A stretch of 20,217 nt of DNA, taken from positions 1 through 20,217 of IMG/VR virus record IMGVR_UViG_3300035698_028661; one strand, 5' to 3'. Of this stretch, positions 13,551 to 20,118 are shown piece after piece. Within the stretch, counting starts at the first letter, position 1. Each line of letters begins with the position of its first letter. Origin of the DNA: a virus. The position numbers and the translations under genes were made by a program. The notes below the pieces were generated by a model. That model had not been told where the DNA came from. It was given only the letters and a program-made list of their open reading frames with translations, and did no database searches.

Positions 13551-16424
13551 TTATGGTCCCTTGGAGCCGGCGCCGCGAGTACCCGGCGTTGTTGAGTTAC
13601 CCCATACCTCATCGTCGTCGTCCTCAACTGTCGTAACCGCATCCTTGATGGTTTTTTCTCCGATCTTAACGTTGACGACAACCTCTGGCTTCTTCCTCCC
13701 GAACGTACCGGCGTCAAGTTCGTCGAGCATGTCGTTGAAGCTTTTCTTTTGGGGCTCGGAACCCTGATCCGTCAAAGAACGCTTCTGATCCCTAAGGAAC
13801 GTTTTTCTATCATTGATCTGCGTTACGGACGGGTCTCCTTGATCGGGTCGTCCCTCAAATATGATCTGAATCGTTTGCATGATTATTTTGAACGCTTCAA
13901 CCATCCCCCACAACAACCCGTACGCAACGGCCGCTAACGACAAGAATGGAGTAATGAAACCTAATATCAGCACTAGAATCATCGATACGATTACGAGACC
14001 AATAGCTGTAAGTATCGTTAAAATAGCCACACCCAGAACAAGAACTATAGCGGCGATAACCCCTACGATAAAAGCGATGACTGCTGCTACTAACAAGAAC
14101 AGCGGAACCATAATCGCCATCATTACCGACGTAATTACTCCAGCAACCAACATCACGACAGCCGCTCCAACAAAACCTATCGCCGCCATCATCCCTAAAA
14201 TTATAGCTGCAACAATCGCAAACCCTAATACCTTACCGAAGAACTTGGCTAAACCCCACCATTGAGATGCGTCTACTTCAAAGAGTTTGTCCCACACCCA
14301 GCTAAGTGCCGCGAGTAATTCCTTGGCTATTCCGCTTATCCCCTCACTCATCGCTCCCCAGAATTCACCGAACGAAATATCTCCAGTAAGGAACCTAACA
14401 AACGCAGCGAACATCAGTAGTAAGAAGTACAGCGCCGTACCTATTGGACCAACCAACACCAACGCTATCAAGGTACCCATGGTAACGAGCAAGCTCAAGA
14501 GCATCCCGAGACCAATGCCGATGACCACGATTCCCCGTTCAACCCATCGGAGCAACGAACCGATGGTCGCCAATGCGTTGATGAGACCGAGAGCGCTTAC
14601 GTCGTCGAACATCTCCTCAGTCAATCGGAAGTCGTTCGTTATCAGCATCCACAGCGCTTCAAAAAATAACTTCATCGGTTCGAACGAAGACCTAATCCTT
14701 TGGCCCAAATCGCCGCTAGCCTTCATCCACTCTCGAGTTCGAGTAACAATTGCTGAGATGAAAAATCCGATAGCGACGAGTCCGGCTATCGGCAACGCGA
14801 CAGCGACGGCCAAGAGGGCAAACGGCCCCAACCCGAAGAAAAGGATACCCGCTAATGCTATAGCTAAAGCTTTTAGGAGAACGGTATTTTCTTTCACTCC
14901 CTTACGGAAGATTGCAAGAGGTACACCGATTGCTACGAATGCAGTAACAAGGCCAAGAACCAAAATGGTAACGGGCCACAACAGCGCCCACATCGTCGCC
15001 ATCGATGCGTTGAACAAATCAATAGAAAACGTTAAGGCGCCTGTTGCAACCGTCGCAAGTGCTTCAGAAAAGACCATCGTACCAAGTTGGATCCCCATTA
15101 TTTGCATTAGATGGCCCATCAACGCAAAACCGCCAACAGCGAGTAGTATAGCTCCAACAAGGACTAAGATTAAGGATGCTGCGATACCGACTACAACACC
15201 TAGTTTGATCCAATTTCTATTATTGGATAGGAACACGTTGACCGCAAGTGTAATGTCGAAGACTTTTTCGAAGATCGCTGAAAGAACTGGCAACATAGCC
15301 GTACCAATAATGATAGCCATGTTACCGATCGAACCCTTGATACGAATGAGGGTTCCAAGAAGCGTTTCGCGCATCCGGGTCGCCGCCGATGCGACGGCGC
15401 CTTCGGAGTCTTGAAGTAGACCCAAGCGGTGACGAACGGCGTCGATACCCGTAAGAATTTCTCCGCTTTCAAGAACGAAGGAGTCCTTCAAGATGATGCC
15501 CACGCCACGCAAGCCACGCTTGGTGAAGACCTTCAAAATGTCTTCGTTGATTTTCTTTCCAGTGGCACCGGTCCTCTTCCAGTGCTTGTCTAGATCATCC
15601 AAGACGTCGATGAAGCTACGCACCTCGGCGTTCTGGTCGTAAGCGGTAACCTCACCGCCGGTCACCTCCCGAAGCCTCTCTTCGTTTCCAACCATGTTGC
15701 GCATGGCGATACGAATAGCGTTTGAACCAGCCGCCGCGTTAAATCCAACGTCGCGCGCCGCCGCCATCAGCGCCAGGGTTTCTTGGAAGTTCTGATTGAA
15801 GATACGAGCCTCACCAGAGATTCCGGCCAGCCCGCGTTCAAGGTCTTCGAATTGGAGTCGTGAAGTCTGAGTCGCCCGAGTCATCTGGTCAGCGGCTTGG
15901 CGAGCGCTCTTTAAGTCTCCGCGGAACGTTTTCCACGCGACAGAAACGGTGGCGGCGGCTTGCGTCGTCGTAATCATTCCACCAGCAGCTGACGTTAAAT
16001 CGAGAACGACTGAGGTGAGGTCATCCGTGATCTTATTCGTGTCAAATCCAGCTTGAGCCAAGGTCTGCATGGCTTGCGCAACCTGCGTAGCCGTAAACTC
16101 CGTTTCGAGCCCTAATCGTTGAGCCTCACCGGTCAACTTATCAAAATCAGCGCCCGTAGCTCTCGTAACAATTCCGACGCGCTCCATGGCGAATTCGAAG
16201 TCTGCGGCTGACTGCGCAGATTTGAAGGCGAGACCCAACCCCGTCATGCCGGCGGAAAGAGCGGCTGTACCGGCAATCATCGTGCCGAATGCACCGAACA
16301 ACGCGCTCGAGGCCTTTACGCTCCCCGCGGTAAATCCACGCAGACCCATCTGCGCTTTACGCAGCGCGGGAGAGGCGAAGTCTTTCGCGACGATAACGAA
16401 TTGAAGGCCATTGAGCGCGCCCAT
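13551..16424 (-). CDS. Tail tape measure protein (TP901 / PhageMin_Tail type)
   Basis: The 957-residue product has a TP901-type core at residues about 60-270. It includes SAADFEFAMERVGIVTRATG, then LTGEAQRLGLETEFTATQVA, then FNQNFQETLALMAAARDVGF, the classic region of phage minor tail proteins. Tape measures fix tail length and are ejected through the tube. By the usual rule of about 1.5 Å per residue, a tail near 140 nm would be expected. The middle and C-terminal parts contain several hydrophobic stretches (about 405-437, 470-507, 517-560, 631-678, 732-842). The last has no charged residue for 111 positions. The C-terminal 100 residues are charged and end in a Gly/Ser/Thr tail. AAGGAG lies 8 bases before the ATG and overlaps the preceding stop. 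Tape measures often insert in the host inner membrane, which fits the hydrophobicity. Confidence 0.95.
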   Translation of the reverse strand: MGALNGLQFVIVAKDFASPALRKAQMGLRGFTAGSVKASSALFGAFGTMIAGTAALSAGMTGLGLAFKSAQSAADFEFAMERVGIVTRATGADFDKLTGEAQRLGLETEFTATQVAQAMQTLAQAGFDTNKITDDLTSVVLDLTSAAGGMITTTQAAATVSVAWKTFRGDLKSARQAADQMTRATQTSRLQFEDLERGLAGISGEARIFNQNFQETLALMAAARDVGFNAAAGSNAIRIAMRNMVGNEERLREVTGGEVTAYDQNAEVRSFIDVLDDLDKHWKRTGATGKKINEDILKVFTKRGLRGVGIILKDSFVLESGEILTGIDAVRHRLGLLQDSEGAVASAATRMRETLLGTLIRIKGSIGNMAIIIGTAMLPVLSAIFEKVFDITLAVNVFLSNNRNWIKLGVVVGIAASLILVLVGAILLAVGGFALMGHLMQIMGIQLGTMVFSEALATVATGALTFSIDLFNASMATMWALLWPVTILVLGLVTAFVAIGVPLAIFRKGVKENTVLLKALAIALAGILFFGLGPFALLAVAVALPIAGLVAIGFFISAIVTRTREWMKASGDLGQRIRSSFEPMKLFFEALWMLITNDFRLTEEMFDDVSALGLINALATIGSLLRWVERGIVVIGIGLGMLLSLLVTMGTLIALVLVGPIGTALYFLLLMFAAFVRFLTGDISFGEFWGAMSEGISGIAKELLAALSWVWDKLFEVDASQWWGLAKFFGKVLGFAIVAAIILGMMAAIGFVGAAVVMLVAGVITSVMMAIMVPLFLLVAAVIAFIVGVIAAIVLVLGVAILTILTAIGLVIVSMILVLILGFITPFLSLAAVAYGLLWGMVEAFKIIMQTIQIIFEGRPDQGDPSVTQINDRKTFLRDQKRSLTDQGSEPQKKSFNDMLDELDAGTFGRKKPEVVVNVKIGEKTIKDAVTTVEDDDDEVWGNSTTPGTRGAGSKGP

Positions 16425-16435
16425 TTTTACACTCC

Positions 16436-16621
16436 TTATTTGGAGAATCGGGGGTGGCTAGGCTTTGAACCACTGCTAGACTTCATGTCGCCACGCTGTT
16501 TTTCCTGCTGTTCAGTCAGCTTCAGCAGGTACCAGTCGCGCTCCCACTCCGGAAGCGCGTCAGCGTCCTGGGGTGACATCCCGAGTCCTTCGGGATGAAT
16601 GAGCACGAAGTTTTGCTCCAT
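16436..16621 (-). CDS. Small tail assembly chaperone frame (E'/T-like, probably fused by frameshift)
   Basis: The frame encodes 61 residues from an ATG at 16621, including GMSPQDADALPEWERDWYLL. The tryptophan-rich segment is like the short second chaperone frames that precede tape measures. The same frame stays open upstream without a stop through the T TTT TTG at 16657-16663. A -1 shift there would join it to the larger chaperone as a protein of 342 residues. Independent initiation is possible but weak, because AAGGAA is about 11 bases before the ATG. Place between the larger chaperone and tape measure equals that of E' in P2, of T in the lambda G/GT pair, and of the short DUF6760-type gene in some injection systems. 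The role would be to coat the tape measure and recruit tube subunits during assembly. Confidence 0.8.
   Translation of the reverse strand: MEQNFVLIHPEGLGMSPQDADALPEWERDWYLLKLTEQQEKQRGDMKSSSGSKPSHPRFSK
16577..16597 (-). other. Stable hairpin downstream of the frameshift site
   Basis: An 8-bp perfect stem (CATCCCGA with TCGGGATG) encloses a 5-base loop within the small chaperone frame. It starts 59 bases after the slippery heptamer. Classical stimulatory stems begin 5-9 bases downstream, so a direct role in frameshifting is doubtful. It could slow ribosomes or form part of a longer structure. The protein-coding constraint alone would not require such a stem. Confidence 0.5.
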
Positions 16622-16629
16622 GAGAGCTT

Positions 16630-17463
16630 CTATTCCTTCTTTGCTTGCCCCCGCAGCAAAAAATCCAGGATGTCAACCTGGACGTCAACGCGTCGACCGC
16701 ATACGGAACAGTTACCTTTTTCGGAAAGATCGGGCCCCGCTTTGTGCTTTTCGATGGCTTCCTCGAAGAAGTTCAAGATCGGCGCCTCGAAGATTTCCAG
16801 ATCTTCACGATCAACCGTCTGGCCGTTCACTTCCATGATCGTGGCCAACAGCATGTCGTCATTCATGTCGATGGGGTTTGCTTCCAGTCGACCTTGATTG
16901 GAGTACTTCAACGCGATGTCTTCGAAATCACCACCCAAGAGGTAGTGGAATTTCACCGTCACGCCGAGCTTTTCATCTTTCTCAGTGAAGGTGGGGAAGC
17001 CTTCTTGCCATTCCGGATCGACCCGAATGATTTTGATCTCATCCAGCTCGACGGTGAAGTCCGTTTTCTCGCCGCAATCGGGATGCTGGCAAGCAGAGGT
17101 CGCCACCATGGTTCGGGCGTCAGGCCACGTCTGCTTCCGAATTTCCAGTAGCAAGAAGTTGCGATCCGCTTCGGTCATACGACGCAAGAGCGGGGCGGTG
17201 GGCCGTTCACTCCCGAGCGTCTCTACGCACCGAGACAAGAATGCCGTGGTGATGTGAGCACCGCTCCGGCGAGCCTTGCCGGCAGCCGCAGCTTTCCGGT
17301 CGCCGCCGTTGGACGCGCGAACCGTTGCGGTTTTGATGACCACCCCTTCGGCGTCCGTGAATCCAACGGGTAGAATCAGTTCTTCTGAGGTTGTGGGTTC
17401 CGGCAGTCCGAACTTCTTGCGTCGATCTGCTGGGGTGAGATGCTGCTTTCGAATACGTGTCAT
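16630..17463 (-). CDS. Tail assembly chaperone, gp26/gpE-like, with four cysteines
   Basis: The 277-residue product has a basic N-terminus (TRIRKQHLTPADRRKKFG), a helical middle (FLSRCVETLGSERPTAPLLR) and a mixed C-terminal half. Cysteines 125 and 130 (CQHPDC) and 252 and 255 (CSVC) are spaced as a split zinc ribbon, which recalls the T4 gp26-like proteins of contractile tails and injection systems. The sequence FLLLEIRKQTWPDARTM precedes the first pair. Location between tube and tape measure fits a tail assembly chaperone. The slippery heptamer T TTT TTG covers codons 268-269, 8 codons before the stop. The ATG has GGAGGAGA upstream, a strong ribosome site. Specific assignment to gp26 is by pattern and less certain than the chaperone position. 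Confidence 0.78.
   Translation of the reverse strand: MTRIRKQHLTPADRRKKFGLPEPTTSEELILPVGFTDAEGVVIKTATVRASNGGDRKAAAAGKARRSGAHITTAFLSRCVETLGSERPTAPLLRRMTEADRNFLLLEIRKQTWPDARTMVATSACQHPDCGEKTDFTVELDEIKIIRVDPEWQEGFPTFTEKDEKLGVTVKFHYLLGGDFEDIALKYSNQGRLEANPIDMNDDMLLATIMEVNGQTVDREDLEIFEAPILNFFEEAIEKHKAGPDLSEKGNCSVCGRRVDVQVDILDFLLRGQAKKE
16657..16663 (-). other. Putative -1 ribosomal frameshift site (slippery heptamer T TTT TTG)
   Basis: On the coding strand the heptamer reads T TTT TTG, exactly in the X XXY YYZ phase of the larger chaperone frame (codons GAT TTT TTG). After a -1 slip the new frame reads through 12 codons with no stop and enters the small chaperone frame in register. The two frames differ by exactly -1. 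The heptamer is of the type used in the P2 E/E' tail genes. It is followed by a G-rich run, CGGGGG, and an AAGGAA that could act as an internal stimulatory Shine-Dalgarno or serve the downstream ATG. Confidence 0.75.
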
Positions 17464-17541: not shown

Positions 17542-18087
17542 TTAGGTGGCTCCAAGGGTCGAACCAGCGCGTTCAACAGCCATCTCGACGCGCTCGAACC
17601 ATACGTCCGAAGATGTGCCGTCGAGATCGGAATGCTCGTAAATCGCGGGCCATACGGCATCGAAATAGTACTCAAAGGCATGCGGGGTGTTCCCGCCGGG
17701 TGCGTCCCCGCCACGAGGGAAGACTTCTACGCGCATGCTGCCGCGGAGCACTTCTTCCTCTACATTGCCGTCTACGTCGATATCGACGATTTGCTTGTTC
17801 CAGTCGAGTAGAACGTTGGCTCCCTGAGAAGCAGCGCTCTCCAGTAACTGGCCACGCTCCAACACGATGTTGTCGTACGTGGTGAGCCCCGGAATCTTTC
17901 GAACAGATCCCAACTCATCGCCGTTACGGTATTCGACCTGCTCCGTTTCCTGACGCAAACCGCTAACGCGCTGGCAACCGATCGTAATCGGAGAACCGCT
18001 GTTTACGGAATTCGGCGGGTTAAGAGTTATCCGAAACTTGAATCCGCGCAACGGATCGTGCCGCACGCTACCACTAAGAATTGCCAT
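17542..18087 (-). CDS. Tail tube protein (T4 gp19-like)
   Basis: The 181-residue product follows the sheath directly and is close to the T4 gp19 length. The N-terminus has DPLRGFKFRITL, and residues about 38-75 carry the tube-family core: RVSGLRQETEQVEYRNGDEL, then KIPGLTTYDNIVLERGQLLE. The pattern GL-E-E-YR-G, then PG-T-Y-NI-L-RG is highly characteristic. Hexamers of this protein stack to form the inner tube through which DNA or cargo passes. The C-terminal part (VWPAIYEHSDLDGTSSDVWF) matches the last strands before the helix VERVEMAVERA-like end. GGAGGC lies 6 bases before the ATG and is part of the last sheath codons, so sheath and tube are translated together as in P2 FI-FII and T4 gp18-gp19. 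Confidence 0.94.
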   Translation of the reverse strand: MAILSGSVRHDPLRGFKFRITLNPPNSVNSGSPITIGCQRVSGLRQETEQVEYRNGDELGSVRKIPGLTTYDNIVLERGQLLESAASQGANVLLDWNKQIVDIDVDGNVEEEVLRGSMRVEVFPRGGDAPGGNTPHAFEYYFDAVWPAIYEHSDLDGTSSDVWFERVEMAVERAGSTLGAT

Positions 18088-18090
18088 GAG

Positions 18091-20118
18091 TTAGCCTCCA
18101 GTTATACCCAAGTCGCCGCTGATGAGCGCCAAGTTGAAGAGAATGAACTCAGCCGGCGGTACCGGCCGAATGCCCATGTCGCAGTGCAGGTTACCCAGTT
18201 CGATCTCGGATGCCGGGTTGTTCTCATCATCGCACTTGACGTAGTACGCGCCGTTGACCGCTTCCGCCGAAGCTCCCGCGGGTACGTACAGCGATCCGTC
18301 ACGATACAGGCTTCCCAAGAATGACCGTACCGAGAGGTACAGACTGCGTCGCGTGGTGTAGTCGTTTGGTTCGAAGACCACCCACCCGGTGCTGTTGAGA
18401 ATGCCGACCTGGACGTAGGTCATGATGCGGCGGATGTTGATGTAGTGGCGACCGTCCTTGACGGTCCACATCGTACGCGCGCCCCAGATTCGGAAACCCC
18501 GCTCCGCGAAGTTGCGGATGACGTTGACGCCGAGTGGGTTCAATAACCCTTGTTCGGCGTCCTGGACGTCCACGGTGAGCCCAAGGATGTTATTCAACAC
18601 AGGAACGTTGGCCGGCGCCTTGCGAATACCGGAAGTTTGCGTACTGTCCGACCACGCTCCCTGAACGGTTCCGTCAGGGGGGAGGTCGATCGTCAAGCCG
18701 TCGTTATCCGGGTCTGCGATCTGCACCCACGGGAAGTACAGCGCCACGAAGCTGGAGTCGATTCCGATGGTGTAGCGTCGATACTCATCCGCGGCCAGTA
18801 CCGTATCTACAGTGGCTGGCGTGTGGGCGATGTACATCGTGTCGGCGCGATTTTCTGAGTAAGCCGCAGCGGCTTGATCGACCACTACGCTATCGCTATC
18901 CGGAACCGACCAGAAGTTCATGGCTCCGCGACCCGCGAAGTCAAACAGGTACATACCCGTCTTTCCCGTAAAGTCGTCAATACCAACGAAATCGGCAGCC
19001 GCGACGGCAGCGTCAGTACCACCCGTTAGGCTGGTTTCCACGGTGTCGATTGGGGCAAACTGACCGTCTGTGAAGGGACCGGTGACACTCATTCCAACCC
19101 CGGTTGTCGCTGAAACGAGAATGCTCTCGTTGGTGGTACCACCCAACCGCGTCGCGATGGAATCGGCTGAATCCGTGGAGACGCTGAGGAACTCATGAGT
19201 TTCTACGACGGCGTTGTCTTCGTAGACGACCATGTCGAATTCTTCGCTAACCACAATCGCACCAATAATGAGTGCGTTAGTCAGATTCGTCGAGAAGGTG
19301 ACGGTGTTACCACTCACCGACAACACCTCGAGAAATTCGAATTCCGTCGCAACCGAACCGTAAAGACCGACAACCATGCCGGTCGCGAAACGCGTACCGT
19401 CAACGACGATAACGTCAGCCTGAGCGGCAGCAGCGGCCACGGCCGCCGTAGTGGAGGCGCGGTGTTTGCTGCAGGTGGTCAGGTTCGAGCCATCACCGCA
19501 AATGGCTCCCCCTATAGGATCCGCAAGTGAAAACGTCTTCGTGGTGTAGTCGATGGCGTAGATGTAACCATACTTGGTAAGACCCGACGCCGGGTCGACG
19601 CCACGAACCACATCGCCAATCTCGAACCCGGTAACGTCACTTACGATAACGTCGGCGACGCTACTGGCGCCGCCAGCAGGCCACGTCGCCGGGTCATTGA
19701 TGGTTGTGGAGGCCTTGAGGTTGGACACCCCCAAGAAGTTGCCGCCTTCGCCCTCGGCAATCGAAAGAACATTCAGACCAACCGCGGGAATGAGTACGGA
19801 GTTGTTGATGTCGAGATCTGCGTGGTTGGCGGGCGAGATGCTCTGGGCCGTGATTTTGGAAATCCAACACGCCGAACCACCGTTTTCGAAGAATTGCTTG
19901 ACGCAAAACGGCAAAAACAAATCACCGTAAACGGAGCTGTTGAAGATGCCGCCATACAACCTCGTGAATTGAGACCACGACGTCACGAAACCGAGCTTGT
20001 CGTCCACCCCGCGTCGAGTCAAACCCTCGAACGCACCGATGTCGGCAGCTGGGGCTGTGATGAGCGGAATGCCACCTTGTTCGGTGAAATAGAGACCGGG
20101 GAAGGTCAGAATAGGCAT
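18091..20118 (-). CDS. Contractile tail sheath protein with a large inserted beta domain
   Basis: The 675-residue product has both conserved ends of sheath proteins. At the N-terminus are FPGLYFTEQGGIPLITAPA and DIGAFEGLTRRG, then FVTSWSQFTRLYGG and a helix with FFENGGSACWISKI. At the C-terminus are AERGFRIWGARTM (538-550), RHYINIRRIMTYV (557-569), VFEPNDYTTRRSLYLSVRSF (581-600), AYYVKCDDENNP (624-635) and IRPVPPAEFILFNL (650-663). Contraction of the sheath drives the tube through the envelope. The middle (residues about 100-370) is Ala/Val/Thr/Ser-rich and variable, as expected for the surface domain. It contains two similar beta units at 153-202 and 232-280. AGGAGG lies about 9 bases before the ATG, inside the end of the previous gene. 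Confidence 0.97.
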   Translation of the reverse strand: MPILTFPGLYFTEQGGIPLITAPAADIGAFEGLTRRGVDDKLGFVTSWSQFTRLYGGIFNSSVYGDLFLPFCVKQFFENGGSACWISKITAQSISPANHADLDINNSVLIPAVGLNVLSIAEGEGGNFLGVSNLKASTTINDPATWPAGGASSVADVIVSDVTGFEIGDVVRGVDPASGLTKYGYIYAIDYTTKTFSLADPIGGAICGDGSNLTTCSKHRASTTAAVAAAAAQADVIVVDGTRFATGMVVGLYGSVATEFEFLEVLSVSGNTVTFSTNLTNALIIGAIVVSEEFDMVVYEDNAVVETHEFLSVSTDSADSIATRLGGTTNESILVSATTGVGMSVTGPFTDGQFAPIDTVETSLTGGTDAAVAAADFVGIDDFTGKTGMYLFDFAGRGAMNFWSVPDSDSVVVDQAAAAYSENRADTMYIAHTPATVDTVLAADEYRRYTIGIDSSFVALYFPWVQIADPDNDGLTIDLPPDGTVQGAWSDSTQTSGIRKAPANVPVLNNILGLTVDVQDAEQGLLNPLGVNVIRNFAERGFRIWGARTMWTVKDGRHYINIRRIMTYVQVGILNSTGWVVFEPNDYTTRRSLYLSVRSFLGSLYRDGSLYVPAGASAEAVNGAYYVKCDDENNPASEIELGNLHCDMGIRPVPPAEFILFNLALISGDLGITGG

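Follow-up and report, generated by a model that had tools for sequence, protein, structure and literature searches.

Among the tail genes of a 20.2-kb fragment from a virus record (20,217 nucleotides, the whole stretch analysed and hereafter the window), a large open frame is followed by a small one in a different phase, which raises the question of whether these are two genes or one gene read in two frames. The identified genes of the window all lie on the minus strand, in the order tail sheath, gp19-like tube, chaperone pair, tape measure and then baseplate genes, and the source appears to be an uncultured, T4-like phage with a contractile tail. The larger frame of the pair (TAC-N) is placed between the tail tube and tape measure genes, as are the gp26/gp51 chaperones of T4-like phages. 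No Rfam families and no tRNA were found in the window. A 375-codon open frame on the opposite strand (14287-15414, +), antisense to the tape measure gene, is most likely a by-product of a hydrophobic coding strand. The features are listed below, L002 being an independent contig that is the sole close relative found.

18091..20118, minus strand: tail sheath protein (PF04984 + PF17482; PHROG 23)
17542..18087, minus strand: tail tube protein (PF06841 Phage_T4_gp19, E=2.5e-17)
16630..17463, minus strand: TAC-N, gp26-like tail assembly chaperone frame, 277 aa (PF12322; PHROG 150; AlphaFold2 model)
16657..16663, minus strand: putative site of -1 tandem slippage, heptamer T TTT TTG in phase (direct reading; kept in L002)
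16634..16638, minus strand: AAGGA, weak Shine-Dalgarno-like sequence 12 nt before the small-frame ATG (direct reading; present in L002 too)
16622..16657, minus strand: overlap/junction in -1 after the slip, 12 sense codons (AAGASKEGIEAL; direct reading)
16436..16621, minus strand: TAC-C, 61-codon small frame in -1, gp51-like position, motif LPEWERDWY (direct reading; L002 comparison)
13551..16424, minus strand: tape measure protein, 957 aa, directly after the chaperone pair (PF10145, E=7e-21)

A preliminary description of this DNA had proposed that a -1 frameshift joins the two frames, and direct reading of the codons confirms the junction as it was described there. GAT TTT TTG forms codons 267-269 of the 277-codon frame and is followed by eight sense codons and then TAG, the 61-residue frame (ORF 16621-16436(-)) lies exactly in -1, and the codons that would be read after the slip (GCT GCG GGG GCA AGC AAA GAA GGA ATA GAA GCT CTC) number 12, contain no stop and lead into the ATG. 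Given this phase and the 12 intervening sense codons, a slip would give a fusion of 342 residues (269+12+61) beside the 277-residue protein. The combination expected of a lambda/P2-type frameshift, an in-phase X XXY YYZ site with an open -1 extension that is kept in a relative, is found here. We infer the occurrence of slippage, its rate and the binding roles of the products as follows: most ribosomes would end after 277 residues to give TAC-N, and a minority would slip back one base at T TTT TTG, with both tRNAs (tRNA-Phe and tRNA-Leu) pairing anew on TTT TTT, and would go on to give TAC-NC of 342 residues. If lambda gpG/gpGT serves as the model, TAC-N would associate with the tape measure protein, whose gene comes immediately downstream, the extra C-terminal domain would bring in the tail tube subunit, whose gene comes immediately upstream, and neither TAC-N nor TAC-NC would stay in the finished tail; the frameshift mechanism of lambda and P2 is reviewed in PMC5009743.

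TAC-N matches PF12322 (T4_baseplate, T4 gp26) with E=1.3e-6 and 28.7 bits against a cut-off of 24.5, as do all 44 aligned members (the window protein and 43 relatives), and it is assigned to PHROG 150. Since TAC-N belongs to PF12322, its closest counterpart is the gp26/gp51 chaperone of T4-like phages, and gp26 and gp51 are listed as hub assembly chaperones in a review of T4 (PMC3004832). The AlphaFold2 model of TAC-N (mean pLDDT 90.4) matches many BFVD viral models named T4-like baseplate-hub (gp26) proteins; sequence and fold searches of the PDB gave no significant match, the HK97 tail assembly chaperone ranking fourth among the fold matches (prob 0.44, non-significant). The four cysteines that had been pointed out earlier in the larger partner (C125, C130, C252 and C255) are all there as a split, zinc-ribbon-like set, and among the aligned relatives C125, C130 and C255 are invariant and C252 nearly so, so the motif is a trait of the family and is not special to this phage.

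The heptamer and its surroundings are conserved in L002, whose TAC-N protein is 82% identical to that of the window and which retains the heptamer, the open -1 overlap and the small frame. Along the 1028 nt of the pair, the 45-nt stretch of highest identity is the junction (43/45 identical versus 78% overall), only 2 of the last 14 TAC-N codons are changed (background 55%, P about 0.002), and TAC-C is 73% identical with dN 0.18 and dS 1.4, figures that rest on two sequences with saturated dS and are supporting rather than decisive. On this comparison the small frame is under protein-level selection. The lineage of the window had only these two members in the collections searched, no relatives were found in bacterial genomes, and two further candidates (L087 and L182) proved spurious. 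Within the genes of the window, sites of the X XXY YYZ class (Y = A/T) occur nine times in 6676 codons, and the coding strand carries just one T6 run besides the heptamer. When the codons of TAC-N were shuffled, the chance of any in-phase site of this class in the 14-codon zone was 0.023.

The same arrangement is present in T4-like phages. In 6/6 pairs read (cyanophages S-ShM2, S-SRM01, S-T4 and P-RSM1, Vibrio phage ValKK3 and Desulfovibrio phage 7757) T TTT TTC stands in phase 13 nt before the gp26 end with the partner in -1, gp26 ending in each case TTT TTC xxx stop and gp51/TAC-C following in -1, and the GAT TTT TTG of the window occupies the equivalent place. The alignment check suggested for the heptamer and open -1 overlap is therefore passed by L002 and by 6/6 further T4-like pairs, and S-H9-1 and Atu_ph07 agree with this arrangement, the small frame of S-H9-1 matching PHROG 634 'baseplate hub assembly catalyst' (gp51) at E=2e-26. 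T4-like TAC-N/TAC-NC tail assembly chaperones are reportedly the subject of Vladimirov, Gautam and Davidson 2022. According to PMC12846349, which cites Vladimirov et al. 2022, tail assembly chaperone genes have been assigned in T4-like phages and their TAC-N genes carry poly-T signals for -1 frameshifting; PMC10885494 also cites this work on TAC-N/TAC-NC. The small frame of the window has a PxxER-like motif in common with the C-terminal domain of gp51 with no significant profile match between them, and profile searches with this frame gave no significant hit. Elsewhere, the -1 small domain of one relative (L096, 3603-3828) matches Pfam DUF6760 (E=3e-5; L002 at 0.08 only), which suggests that DUF6760, a family of unknown function, may be a TAC-C-type domain. 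Four other loci (L091 at 9447, L141 at 8439, L124 at 5383 and L172 at 2244) have an open -1 partner after TAC-N with no obvious canonical heptamer near the stop.

These comparisons bear on the ways in which the two frames could be other than one recoded gene. Homopolymer runs are prone to errors, and a sequencing or assembly error in the T run could have split one true frame; this is scarcely credible, given that the independent contig L002 has equal frames with the 8-residue tail LRGQAKKE intact and that the arrangement is equal in 6/6 further phage genomes. The 61-residue frame might instead be a separate gene, translated from its own ATG at 16621 (the free product would begin MEQNFVLIHPEGLG) and coupled to the upstream stop, with the heptamer incidental. 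That ATG is preceded at 12 nt by AAGGA in both the window and L002, and gp51 is often annotated as an ORF of its own; by its title, Vladimirov et al. 2022 is said to hold that T4 itself uses a mechanism other than frameshifting. We nevertheless consider a separate gene very improbable, because an in-phase T TTT TTG would arise by chance in the 14-codon zone with a probability of just 0.0003 (codon-shuffled TAC-N), no stop interrupts the -1 reading of the 12 codons that lead up to the ATG and conservation at the junction is unusually high, and because in 6/10 of the -1 members no start codon lies 15 or more codons ahead of the ER motif, P-RSM1 has no annotated small gene and the annotated start in S-T4 falls inside the conserved region. 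It is also unlikely that internal initiation yields a share of free 61-residue protein next to the fusion made by frameshifting: the weak start is kept in the window and L002, but the 12-nt spacing between AAGGA and ATG is poor, and neither lambda T nor P2 E' is known to us to be made in both ways. The sequence itself shows the phase, the heptamer, an overlap free of stops, their conservation in one relative, the family, the gene order and the equivalents in other phages, and the two frames are very probably one recoded gene for a T4-like (gp26/gp51-type) tail assembly chaperone with a -1 slip at the heptamer. The heptamer, the overlap, L002 and the T4-like pairs support the -1 mechanism originally proposed as the best explanation.

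No conserved downstream stimulatory RNA structure common to the window and L002 was found at the usual spacing, the downstream fold having a z of -2.3 in the window and -1.0 in L002 with different folds. Two hairpins were considered and rejected, CATCCCGA/TCGGGATG about 60 nt past the slip because it is too distant and weaker in L002, and TCCAGG/CCTGGA directly upstream of the heptamer because it would sit inside the ribosome.

Unexpectedly, the wider family probably uses frameshifts of both directions. Automatic classing of 90 distinct relative loci gave 75 with the second frame in +1 and 10 in -1, with five more assigned to +1 by eye, and a sheath-anchored search that was blind to the chaperone returned distinct loci of both kinds, 20 in +1 and 5 in -1. 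In 75/75 of the automatically classed +1 members the permitted zone (last +1 stop to 0-frame stop; median 10 codons) contains a TTT codon with C or T as the next base, and the codon after TTT is CGN in 52, CAA or CAG in 13, a stop in 8 and CTY in 2. TTT is always there in 43 lineages (thinned at 75% identity), although TTC accounts for 31% of the other Phe codons in these genes. Sites of the UUU_Y type are known to be prone to +1 slippage in bacteria. A -2 slip in these relatives would give the identical frame and may be the event that occurs. The +1 clade includes the Streptomyces phages BRock, LuckySocke, Alone3, GiJojo and pSt2308 and about 70 environmental contigs. The gp26-like genes of these Streptomyces myophages have a conserved second frame in +1 with a W..RER.W motif, and in the named phages this frame either bears the label of a distinct hypothetical protein or has no annotation, so that comparison of the sequences points to a probable unannotated +1 frameshift. 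In L005 (7527-8610, BRock), L003 (3833-4940, LuckySocke), L174, L175 and L004 the gp26-like genes end CTG TTT C.., the BRock junction reading CTG TTT CGC GAA CTC TAA. The small frame of the window resembles the TAC-C of the +1 relatives at motif level (LPEWERDWY versus LTxRERxNW), with an hhalign probability of 0.4%.

As most distant relatives found probably use +1 at UUU_Y, the direction of the frameshift would not be conserved family-wide. A maximum-likelihood tree of 56 TAC-N rows recovers the main +1 clade as one group (support 98/92), with neither the window nor L002 in it and both close to other -1 rows; deep placements are unsure owing to long branches, and the direction label requires at least three changes on this tree. 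A switch of direction within the window's own lineage had been suspected since the first ~50 distinct relatives were all +1; it was ruled out by this placement of the two sequences on the tree and by the T4-like outgroups, which are -1. Bacillus phage SP-15 (L169, 1324-2263) has a +1 second frame near GAA TTT TTT CAC and Streptococcus phage vB_SagM-GXN1 (L168, 1444-2193) one near TTC TTT CGT, both outside the main +1 clade, which suggests that the direction changed repeatedly. On the simplest reading, -1 is the older state and +1 a later one, perhaps reached more than once. It seems likely that one homologous chaperone family has switched frameshift direction and kept its short/long design, the T4-like phages and the window being -1 and a large monophyletic sister clade +1.

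A slip back at TTTTTTG is a known trick of tailed phages; the site for it is real and conserved here and not new in type. The sequence data indicate that a myovirus lineage not described elsewhere makes its T4-like gp26 chaperone in a short and a long form via -1 slippage, and the 61-residue ORF should consequently be annotated as a fusion domain. Since an equal two-form output is apparently reached via opposite frameshift directions, selection would keep the long form and not the site; the comparison of directions is a natural experiment and the part that specialists would most want to follow, and under the +1 reading several named Streptomyces phages would need new annotation.

Compared with known systems, the likeness to P2 E/E' and lambda G/GT that the preliminary description had drawn holds as an analogy of mechanism, with the position before the tape measure gene and the short and long forms also shared (T TTT TTG is the P2 heptamer as well), but the closest counterpart is gp26/gp51 (PF12322), and the HK97 chaperone is a non-significant fold match. 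With gp26/gp51 of T4-like phages the window shares the PF12322 TAC-N, the zinc-ribbon-like cysteines, the placement between tube and tape measure genes, a poly-T -1 site (GAT/AGT/TCT) TTT TTY and a -1 small partner with a PxxER-like motif, whereas its heptamer ends in G (TTG) rather than C, its TAC-N extends 8 residues past the slip rather than about 1, and its TAC-C is without significant profile similarity. The +1 UUU_Y chaperones have in common with the window the family, gene order, cysteines and a small second frame with a W..RER.W motif; this frame stands in them in +1 at (YTG) TTT-Y, followed mostly by CGN, CAR or a stop, whereas that of the window stands in -1 at T TTT TTG.
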